Part shown: one piece after another, positions 11,882 through 20,529 of the stretch
How the letters are laid out: each line of letters opens with the position of its first letter
Numbering within the stretch: the first letter of the stretch is position 1
Assembly: GCF_003236295.1 (NCBI RefSeq)
Contig: NZ_POTW01000030.1
Span: 1-64,000, forward strand
Length of the DNA stretch: 64,000 bases
Direction of reading: 5' to 3'
Origin: Jiangella anatolica
GTDB lineage: Bacteria > Actinomycetota > Actinomycetes > Jiangellales > Jiangellaceae
Position numbers and translations under genes: made by a program
The notes under the pieces: generated by a model
Seen by the model: the letters and a program-made list of their open reading frames with translations, nothing else
Told to the model about the DNA's origin: nothing
The model's database searches: none

Positions 11882-13054
11882 TCACGCCACCGCCTCGGGA
11901 TGCAGCCGGACCAACGGCTGGCCGGGTGCGACCGGGTCGCCGTCCTCGACCAGCCATTCGATGATGGTGCCGCCGTGCCCGGCCGTGACCTGCACGGAGT
12001 CGCGCAGCGAGCTGACTGTGCCGACGGCGTCGCCGGCGGCCAGCCGGTCACCCGACGTCGCAACCGCGAACGTACCCTTGATCGGCGCGACGATGAGCCG
12101 CCAGGTCGGGTTCGTGGGCAGCGGGTTGGTGTGCACGCCGTGCTTCTCGACGAACGCGCGGGCGTCGTCGAGCTGGTCAGGCGTCTTCAGCGCGAACGTC
12201 TCGACGCCGGGCAGCGCGCGCTTGGCCAGGCCCGTCAGCGTGCCGGCCGGCGGCACCTCCAGCAGCCCGGTGACGCCGAGGTCGGCCATCGTCTGCATGC
12301 ACAGGTCCCAGCGGACCGGGCTGGACACCTGGTCGACCAGCCGGTCCAGCACCTGGCGGCCGTCATGGACGACCTGGCCGTCGCGGTTGGACAGCAGCAC
12401 TGTGCGCGGGTCGTGCGTGCTGATCGACTGCGCGTAGTGCCGCAGCCGCTTCACCGCGCCGGCCATGTGCGTCGTGTGGAACGCGCCGGCGACGGAGAGC
12501 GCGCGGAGCCGGGCCCCCTGCGGCGGGTCGCCGGCCAGCGCCTCGAGCTGGGCGACGGTGCCGGCGGCGACGACCTGACCGGCGCCGTTGACGTTGGCCG
12601 GGGTGAGGCCGTGCCGTTCCAGCGTGGCCAGGACGTCGTCGGGGTCGCCGCCGAGGACGGCGGTCATACCGGTGGACTCCTTCGCGGCAGCCTCGGCCAT
12701 GCCCCGGCCGCGCTCGCGGACGAACACCATGGCCTGCTCGGCGGTGATGACGCGGACGGCGGCCGCCGCGGTGATCTCACCGACGCTGTGCCCGGCCGCC
12801 GCGCCCACCGTCGCGAACCCGTCGGCCGGGTGCGGGAACAGCGCGAGCGCCGCGACCAGGCCGGACGCGACCAGCAGCGGCTGGGCGATGGCGGTGTCGC
12901 GGATCGTGTCGGCGTCGGCCTCGGTGCCGTAGTGGGCGAGGTCCAGCCCGGCGACGGCCGACAGCCAGTCGATTCGGGCGGCGAACGACGGCTCCTCCAG
13001 CCATGGCGTGAGGAAACCGGGCGTCTGGGACCCCTGACCGGGGGCGACGATCAC
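11882..13054 (-). CDS. fabD: Malonyl-CoA:ACP transacylase with a C-terminal biotinyl-like domain
   Basis: A 390-residue protein. Residues 1 to about 300 are FabD, which loads malonate onto ACP: APGQGSQTPG at the N-terminus, the nucleophile Ser90 in AGHSVGEITA, and the catalytic His in AGAFHTTHM. Residues 318-390 form an added domain resembling a biotinyl/lipoyl carrier: IVAPIKGTF, then GGTIIEWLVEDGDPV and APGQPLVRL, the classic two halves of that barrel. Where carriers have A-M-K-M this one has S-L-R-D, so the modified Lys is missing and biotinylation is not expected. I chose the GTG at 13054, preceded by GAGGAG. It is the first gene of the fab operon, downstream of the PucR regulator. Confidence 0.93.
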   Translation of the reverse strand: MIVAPGQGSQTPGFLTPWLEEPSFAARIDWLSAVAGLDLAHYGTEADADTIRDTAIAQPLLVASGLVAALALFPHPADGFATVGAAAGHSVGEITAAAAVRVITAEQAMVFVRERGRGMAEAAAKESTGMTAVLGGDPDDVLATLERHGLTPANVNGAGQVVAAGTVAQLEALAGDPPQGARLRALSVAGAFHTTHMAGAVKRLRHYAQSISTHDPRTVLLSNRDGQVVHDGRQVLDRLVDQVSSPVRWDLCMQTMADLGVTGLLEVPPAGTLTGLAKRALPGVETFALKTPDQLDDARAFVEKHGVHTNPLPTNPTWRLIVAPIKGTFAVATSGDRLAAGDAVGTVSSLRDSVQVTAGHGGTIIEWLVEDGDPVAPGQPLVRLHPEAVA

Positions 13055-13147
13055 AAGCACTCCTCTAGCCTCGTGGCTACCCGGCCGTAGAAGGGGTCGG
13101 CCGCAGTCACAAGGTCGTCCCACTAACTTTGGCCGTTCCCCACAACA

Positions 13148-15684: not shown

Positions 15685-16035
15685 ATGGCCGTCCCGATCG
15701 CCGACTTCCTCGCCATCGTCGACCGGCTGCCCGAGGCCGGCGGCACCGACTCGGCGAACTGGACGACGTTCCGGGTGCGCGGCAAGACGTTCGGCTACCT
15801 CTGGCCGCGCACCTCCACCGTCGGGCTGAAGCAGACCATCGCCGAGCAGCTCGCGCTGGTGGCCGAGCGCCCGGACGTGTTCGAGATCCAGTTCACCGCC
15901 GGCGGGTTCGGCTGGGTCGTCGTGTACCTCGACCGCATCGAGCTGGACGAGCTGGTGGAGCTGACGTTCGAGGCGTGGCGGCTGACCGCCCCCGCCGACC
16001 TCGTCGACCAGCAGGGCGACCGGCTGCCGCGCTAG
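15685..16035 (+). CDS. MmcQ/YjbR family protein
   Basis: A 116-residue protein of the MmcQ/YjbR fold: [29 protein letters not shown] near the N-terminal third, then [34 protein letters not shown], the family's closing strand and helix with the WR pair. The fold resembles the CyaY/frataxin and Cyan-box type of small alpha/beta proteins; some members are DNA-binding, but no biochemical role is established. It is the third gene of the membrane protein-pirin-YjbR unit and converges on the collagen-like gene 22 bases away. Confidence 0.85.
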
Positions 16036-16057: not shown

Positions 16058-16492
16058 TCAGGGAACGAGCGTCTCGGCGACGCACTCGCCGATCGTCACC
16101 TCCGGCAGGCCGCTCCAGCACGAGCTCACCAGGGCGGAGCCGGTGAGGTTGCCGCCCGGCGTACCCGGTTCCCCCTGGGGTCCGGGCTCGCCCTGCGGAC
16201 CGGCCGGCCCGGGCTCACCCTGCGGTCCGGCGGGTCCCGCGGGCCCGGCGGGTCCGGTCGCGCCGGCCGGCCCGGCCGGGCCCTGCCGGTTCCAGCTGAT
16301 CGGGTCCTCGGTGCGCCGGCAGCCGTCCGGCCCGTCGACGATGCGGACGTCACCGGCGCCCAGACCGAGCAGGCCGCGGCTCACGCACGCGTGGATCACG
16401 TCGTCGGACGTGGTCGCGGCCATGACCGCGACCGTGCCGCCGCTGACGATCACCGCGGTCGTCGCGACCACGGCGAGCAGGCGGCGGTTCAT
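16058..16492 (-). CDS. Secreted collagen-like protein
   Basis: A 144-residue exported protein. Residues 1 to about 25 are a signal peptide ([24 protein letters not shown]). A short Cys-containing head follows ([16 protein letters not shown], then EDPISWNRQ), an arrangement I know from other actinobacterial collagen-like proteins. Next come 14 uninterrupted Gly-X-Y triplets from GPAGPAGAT to GTP, rich in GEP and GPQ, and a C-terminal Cys pair (SSCWSG and [10 protein letters not shown]). Triplet runs of this kind form trimeric collagen helices, so a short rod with disulfide-linked ends is likely. Its ATG overlaps the stop of the tail-tube-like gene upstream (ATGA), so the two are co-translated and probably act together outside the cell. 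Confidence 0.85.
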
Positions 16493-16995
16493 GGGAGCCG
16501 CTCCACGTGGTCGGCGACGATCGTGACGACCTCGAGCAGCAGGCCGCTGCCGTCGCCGGCGTCGACGTAGGTGAGCTCGCTCGGCCAGGCCTTCTCGTAG
16601 GCGAACCCGGTGATCGGCTCGCCGGCCGTGTCGTACAAGGTGAGAGTGACGTCCTTGCGGGCGTCGGGCGCCCCGGCGAGCAGCAGCTGCTGCCACGCCA
16701 CGAGCGTGTCGTCGTCGGTGACCACCCGGGTGCACACGAGCTCGTGGTCACGGCGCTCGCCGGGCAGCTTGATCGTCGTGATCTGGCCGTCCGGGCCCGT
16801 CACCCGCTGCTCGACGACCTCGGTGGCCGTGCCGAGCCCGACGCACTGCTGCAGGCGCAACCCGGCGCCGTCGAGGCTGAGCTGGTAGCTGACGGCGCTC
16901 GGCGTCGACTGGGCGACGCTGGGCGTGGACGCGCTCAGGACCAAGGCCGTCGCGGCGGCGACGGCGGCCCAGGCGACCGGTGTGACCTTTCGCAT
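16489..16995 (-). CDS. Secreted phage tail-tube-like (T4 gp19-fold) protein
   Basis: A 168-residue protein with a clear signal peptide (residues 1 to about 29, ending SVAQS). The mature part follows the T4 gp19/Hcp-like tail-tube pattern along its whole length: [10 protein letters not shown], then TEVVEQR with a G-rich turn, [48 protein letters not shown], and [16 protein letters not shown]. In cytoplasmic tail-tube proteins these match the W-x-W/I, L-L-D-E-x-G, N-A-W-P and E-x-x-x-x-H-E-G-L-E-R segments. Those proteins are not exported; this one is, and it has two Cys residues (QQCVG, ELVCT) that could form a disulfide. The next gene, a collagen-like protein, overlaps in ATGA. No sheath, baseplate or spike gene is nearby, so a contractile system is unlikely. 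Confidence 0.7.
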
Positions 16996-17109
16996 GGCGA
17001 ACCCCCTCTGGGTGAACCGGTGCTCCGCCGGCGGTCGCGGCGGATCGGCGGATCCAGCAAAGCGGGTCGATCTTGCGAAGGTGAGGGGTTCGCCGGAATT
17101 CGGACGGCT

Positions 17110-19857
<2,748 letters not shown>

Positions 19858-20094
19858 GACTGTCCCTTCGTGATGGTCACTGGTTCCTATCCTGCTCGCT
19901 CGGCGGCCGTACGTCACATTCGCATGCGCGGACGTCTTTCCAAGCGCGCTGGGCAGGGGCACCATAGGCCCGTTCGGGTGAGCGTGTCAGGCTTGGTCTG
20001 GCGGGTTCACTTGCGCGAGAGCGCGTCCTTGGGTGGACTACAGCAAACGCGGTACGCAGGGGGCGGGCCGCGACGACTGCGAGGAGGACGATCG

Positions 20095-20529
20095 GTGGGC
20101 CAGATCGCGGGCCACTCGGACCAGAACGACGGGCCGGCCGCCAAGCTCGGCTTCCGGCCCGACCAAGTGGTCCTGGAGCTCGGCTGGGACGAGGACTGCG
20201 ATGACGATCTGCGTATCGACATCGAGGAAGTCACCGGCAACGAGCTGCTCGACGGCGAGTCCGGCGAGGTCGCTGACGTGGTGCTGCAGTGGTGGCGTGA
20301 CGACGACGGCGATCTCGCCGACGCCCTGGTCGACGCGACCACGGACCTCGCTCCCGGCGGTGTGGTGTGGCTGCTGACGCCGAAGGTGGGCCGCGACGGC
20401 GCCGTCGAGGCCAGCGACATCGCCGACGCCGCGCTGACCGCCGGCCTGTCCACGACGTCCACCGTGTCGGCGGCCGAGGAGTGGTCCGGCACCAAGCTGG
20501 TCGCACCCAAGGGGTCGGCCCGCAAGTGA
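20095..20529 (+). CDS. DUF3052 domain-containing protein
   Basis: A 144-residue acidic protein of the actinobacterial DUF3052 family: LGFRPDQVVLELGWDEDCDDDLRIDIEEVTG, then VVLQWWRDDDGDLADALVDA and GGVVWLLTPK, close to family consensus. The function is unknown. It starts at a GTG with GAGGAGG seven bases upstream, and its stop overlaps the GTG of the peroxiredoxin gene (GTGA). The conserved placement between aceE and ahpE suggests a role in central metabolism or redox defence, but this is only positional. The dense Asp/Glu content would suit metal or basic-protein binding. Confidence 0.88.
   Translation: MGQIAGHSDQNDGPAAKLGFRPDQVVLELGWDEDCDDDLRIDIEEVTGNELLDGESGEVADVVLQWWRDDDGDLADALVDATTDLAPGGVVWLLTPKVGRDGAVEASDIADAALTAGLSTTSTVSAAEEWSGTKLVAPKGSARK

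Follow-up and report, generated by a model that had tools for sequence, protein, structure and literature searches.

The window analysed here, a stretch of 64,000 nucleotides from Jiangella anatolica, carries two overlapping genes on its minus strand at positions 16058-16995, a span that an earlier sequence-only reading had delimited correctly. One encodes a protein of the gp19 tail-tube type, the other a collagen-like protein, and both products begin with a signal-like N-terminus. The locus raises the question of why a tube subunit typical of phage tails and contractile weapons should apparently be exported along with a collagen-like partner. The explanation that we favour, to which we give about an even chance, is that the tail-tube fold has been exapted as part of an exported stalk-and-head structure formed with the collagen-like protein.

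The first gene (16489-16995, minus strand) is an open reading frame for a gp19-fold protein of 168 amino acids. In its N-terminal 30 residues, a charged n-region is followed by a hydrophobic stretch of 12 amino acids with a mean Kyte-Doolittle value of 2.1, and an S-V-A cleavage motif ends the predicted Sec signal (16912-16995, residues 1-28, with probable cleavage after SVA), in agreement with the signal peptide proposed earlier. Signal sequences in all the proteins discussed here were judged by simple criteria. The mature domain (16492-16911) matches PF06841 (Phage_T4_gp19) in a profile search with an E-value of 2.2e-15 and 57.1 bits, above the cut-off of 28.2, residues 35-160 being aligned with positions 3-129 of the 134 in the profile. 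The match takes in nearly all of the profile, in line with the gp19 pattern claimed earlier for the mature part, and both motifs that had been read in it, LYDTAGEP and a second one of 12 residues, are present. Among solved structures, those related in sequence are CIS tubes, the best match being All3324 of Anabaena (1.3e-8). The score against TIGR02241 (phage tail region protein) is 54.1, below the cut-off of 62.4, those against the CIS1 and CIS5 equivalogs are 18.1 of 220 and 25.6 of 260, and the PF05638 (Hcp) profile does not match the protein even at an E-value of 10.

An AlphaFold (AF2) model of the mature protein, computed from a five-row alignment comprising the window protein, L049 and viral-contig loci, has a pLDDT of 75 and a pTM of 0.66. 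With this model, Foldseek retrieved the Streptomyces CIS tube 9gts at an E-value of 2.3e-9 and gave TM values of 0.6-0.69 for several other CIS tubes. VIA-align gave Z 11.9 for Hcp1 of F. johnsoniae and Z 11.7 for the PVC and Afp tube proteins, the matches at Z 11-12 extending over 116-134 residues at 3.1-3.8 Å. The structural comparison suggested by the sequence-only reading came out in its favour: the assignment of the mature protein to the tail-tube fold is well supported, with a model that is itself of middling confidence.

The second gene (16058-16492, minus strand) encodes a collagen-like protein of 144 amino acids. By the same simple criteria, its residues 1-25 form a predicted Sec signal (16418-16492), followed by an N-terminal domain with two cysteines (16283-16417; pattern ACV..G.VRIV....C...E....WN), which has no Pfam or NCBIfam name and is present on many actinomycete collagen-like proteins. 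The collagen-like repeat (16154-16282) comprises exactly the 14 Gly-X-Y triplets counted previously, about 42 residues at positions 71-112, and matches PF01391 (Collagen) with an E-value of 1.4e-7 and 31.5 bits, above the cut-off of 27.2. With a signal and a Gly-X-Y repeat above the Pfam cut-off, the product qualifies as a bacterial collagen-like protein. A C-terminal tail with two further cysteines, starting with SSCW, closes the protein (16058-16153, stop codon included). The cysteines, at positions 36, 58, 125 and 137, lie at both ends of the protein, as noted before. This tail, its last ten residues included, contains no LPXTG sorting signal; because no such surface anchor is seen, the product of the pair may be freely secreted.

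The stop and start codons of the two genes overlap at 16489-16492 in the ATGA reported by the sequence-only reading, which is replaced by GTGA in three orthologues. Orthologues of the gp19 gene were found in four of 12 Jiangella genomes, that of the window included, with 64-80% identity. In all four carriers the pair occupies a single syntenic site beside aceE, and the collagen-like gene follows the gp19 gene, always with the 4-base overlap; among the 12 genomes, a collagen N-domain like that of the window protein is restricted to these four as well. The three congeneric orthologues retain the signal sequences, the overlap, the cysteines and the collagen partner, a joint retention far beyond what would be expected by chance. 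Of the eight non-carriers, at least six have an empty site, aceE being directly followed by a pirin-like gene, and the aceE tree of carriers and non-carriers implies three changes for the pair, on a topology that is poorly supported. Within Jiangella, the expectation that the two genes would be conserved together holds. In the genome samples searched, all of Actinomycetota, the exact pair was seen in no other genus, and this apparent confinement to one genus counts against the stalk-and-head explanation. A scan for promoters and terminators around the pair returned nothing and is uninformative in such high-GC DNA.

Independent backing for a functional link between the gp19-fold and collagen-like proteins comes from collagen-Hcp fusions, one of them encoded at a second locus of the same genome. 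By searching the genome with the two-Cys N-domain, we found a gene outside the window, on contig C22 (L087:1498-2199, P0006), which encodes in one chain a signal, a related two-Cys N-domain, a collagen repeat and an Hcp domain; the latter matches PF05638 above the cut-off (5.2e-12) and a PDB Hcp structure at 1.7e-5. No other gene of this genome exceeds the PF05638 cut-off. Across the class, 15 PF05638 genes were found in 14 of 394 genomes, and five of the 15 carry the N-domain and collagen: that of the own genome, one each in G071 and G077, and two in G109, of which one fell just under the cut-off on re-scanning. Since N-domain collagen proteins are otherwise infrequent among genes (67 in 297 genomes), the association of Hcp with the N-domain is far above chance, the probability of five in 15 being about 1e-18 if 4,500 genes per genome are assumed and 1e-13 under harsher assumptions. 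Taken together, the collagen-Hcp fusions and the gp19-collagen pair therefore show two distinct tail-tube families linked to one stalk type, Hcp in cis and gp19 in trans.

These fusions also weigh on the most serious alternative, according to which a secreted gp19 binding protein or inhibitor and a collagen-like matrix component are merely co-expressed and act independently. We regard it as unlikely, yet as the strongest of the competing explanations. N-domain collagen proteins are common without a tail-tube partner, and their stalks elsewhere bear C-terminal modules such as trypsin/HtrA-like domains (recognised by eye) and unnamed domains; judging from these architectures, the N-domain collagen stalk is generic and tells little about the role of its head. 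Signal-bearing tail-tube proteins also occur without collagen. One genome (G604) encodes a gp19 protein (L077:9977-10597, minus strand; PF06841 1.8e-13) with a Tat-type signal (SRRDALKAVGG), and Hcp proteins (L106, L107, L114) carry a Sec-type signal in G357 and Tat-type signals in G040 and G073. Independence of the two proteins is, however, difficult to reconcile with the retention of the 4-base overlap in four species and with the recurrence of single-chain fusions, one of them in the own genome. The same signal-bearing proteins contradict the general statement of the sequence-only reading that gp19-type proteins are cytoplasmic machine parts, as gp19 and Hcp members of other Actinomycetota have predicted Sec or Tat signals. 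The G604 gp19 gene stands alone and belongs to an actinobacterial family other than that of the window genome. At two further loci (L152 and L159), the two-Cys N-domain is combined with apparent trypsin/HtrA-like protease domains and with little or no collagen repeat.

In the stalk-and-head structure that we propose, both products would leave the cell via the Sec route, as their signal sequences suggest. The collagen-like protein would form a short trimeric stalk of about 42 helical residues, capped by the two-Cys N-domain and the two-Cys C-terminal tail, and the gp19 protein would form a globular head stabilised by a Cys51-Cys88 disulfide. The head could be a ring, a half-ring or a pseudo-hexamer built through tail-tube interfaces, and would join the collagen stalk after export through a physical interaction. 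VgrG/gp27 trimers sit on hexameric tubes, and the symmetries of a hexameric tube domain and a trimeric collagen would likewise be compatible. Stalk and head, on the cell surface or released, may act as a small fibre or adhesin touching other cells, hosts or substrates, the gp19-collagen pair being a split-gene version of the collagen-Hcp fusions found in its own genome and in other actinomycetes.

A stronger form of this idea, already put forward in the sequence-only reading, is that the exported gp19 protein polymerises outside the cell to give a genuine hollow tube or nanotube, for which the collagen protein would provide the fibre. The tail-tube fold is complete and includes motifs conserved in assembling tubes, but no sheath, baseplate or terminator partner lies nearby, and the Hcp domains of the fusions bear a collagen arm and are in several cases partial, their match starting only at PF05638 positions 30-46, which is more like a head than a stacking tube unit. 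We consider such a tube improbable.

It is more improbable still that the exported subunit caps, jams or decoys CIS particles, whether own or foreign. Cytosolic CIS-type gp19 genes, devoid of signals, do exist elsewhere in three congeners (G001, G007, G010), but the pair does not track them, G001 being the only genome with both. In its own genome, of 7.0 Mb, PF06841 is represented by the window gene alone, so that a CIS tube of the same family that its product could serve would be lacking; from this single gene it can also be argued that sheath and baseplate genes are probably absent elsewhere in the genome. Streptomyces CIS, moreover, remain cytoplasmic, within a complete contractile particle (PMC10066040). 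They share with the window protein the use of a gp19-family tube by an actinomycete, whereas the window protein has a predicted export signal and stands alone. Nearly all other sampled gp19 homologues lack a signal-like N-terminus. A scan of a genome collection with the single sequence found nothing, and the same scan with an alignment found only J. ureilytica (KC603). Among phages, tblastn with the gp19-fold protein gave no match; among plasmids, only remote matches were obtained, and the two Deinococcus plasmid matches examined sit in CIS clusters. An isolated gp19 gene in G028 (29%) was considered as an exported relative and rejected, its N-terminus (MPAGLGPNQ...) being no signal.

The two extra cysteines of the mature gp19 domain are in line with the oxidising location suggested for them. 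Cys51 and Cys88 are invariant in all four exported Jiangella forms, and the two do not occur jointly in any of about 60 other sampled homologues, in which the corresponding columns mostly hold V/I and L/V, with a cysteine in five at the first column and in none at the second. This pattern is the one expected of a disulfide replacing a buried core contact (V/L). In pairwise comparisons among carriers, mature gp19 shows dN of 0.14-0.30 and dN/dS of 0.66-1.24, against 0.01-0.05 and 0.13-0.22 for the neighbouring aceE, dS being similar; the stalk N-domain is constrained, with dN/dS of 0.10-0.36. A third-position GC of 0.93-1.0 biases these ratios, so that weight should be put on the difference between genes rather than on the values. 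The fast change of mature gp19 is expected of an exposed contact surface, and relaxed constraint would fit it too. The high ratio of gp19 and the patchy presence of the pair across Jiangella would also suit a decaying CIS or prophage remnant whose 5' end happened to become joined to a signal sequence, an explanation that is largely refuted by reading frames that are intact in all four carrier species, by invariant fold motifs, a conserved signal and cysteine pair, a conserved partner with a constrained N-domain, and the lack of adjoining tail genes.

Compared with known systems, the window protein shares its fold over the whole mature domain, as well as its motifs, with the CIS inner tubes (Afp1, PVC1, Cis1, AlgoCIS; PF06841). 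In contrast to these, it has a signal, a cysteine pair and a collagen partner, lacks sheath and baseplate neighbours, and stays well short of the CIS1 and CIS5 cut-offs. Hcp/TssD (PF05638), the tube protein of the T6SS, is structurally close to it, and in the own genome it is an Hcp domain that a stalk of this kind carries in one chain, whereas the window protein is of the gp19 type by sequence. Scl/SclA and BclA are collagen-like proteins of bacterial surfaces that carry their heads at the C-terminus. The window pair resembles them in its signal, short Gly-X-Y stalk and additional domains, and differs in its two-Cys N-domain, in the absence of LPXTG, and in having a tail-tube head encoded by a separate, overlapping gene. 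Bacterial collagen stalks with C-terminal heads and tail-tube folds are each already known; the open literature searched contained no case of the two combined in exported proteins. Nothing on point was found in open-access literature for exported gp19, collagen-Hcp or Jiangella collagen, an absence that carries little weight.

With somewhat less confidence than for the locus itself, at a level short of even, we suggest that, in Actinomycetota, tail-tube folds of the gp19 and Hcp types have repeatedly been recruited by exaptation to form the heads of exported collagen-like stalks, giving extracellular fibres in which three- and six-fold symmetries match and which work outside every known injection machine. 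The Jiangella pair might then be the first instance to be described of a more widespread exaptation of tail-tube folds. If so, a central component of phage tails and of contractile weapons would have been put to use as a structural unit outside the cell, in bacteria that need not possess such a machine, and the automatic labels "phage tail protein" and "type VI secretion tube protein Hcp" would mislead in these genomes. It would also add a type of collagen-like fibre with a ring-forming head, open to testing and engineering.

The neighbours of the pair, namely FabD-like, PucR, YjbR, aceE and peroxiredoxin genes, are of the housekeeping kind, and among those checked there is no sheath, baseplate, second tube paralogue or other tail gene, as the sequence-only reading had stated. 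A long open reading frame antisense to aceE (16507-20529, plus strand) was rejected as a high-GC artefact. The YjbR gene beside the pair (15685-16035, plus strand) is missing from this position in the other three carriers, and G011 has a YjbR copy about 10 kb from the pair. The FabD-like acyltransferase (11882-13123, minus strand) has a C-terminal biotin/lipoyl-like domain, seemingly without the usual modified-lysine motif.
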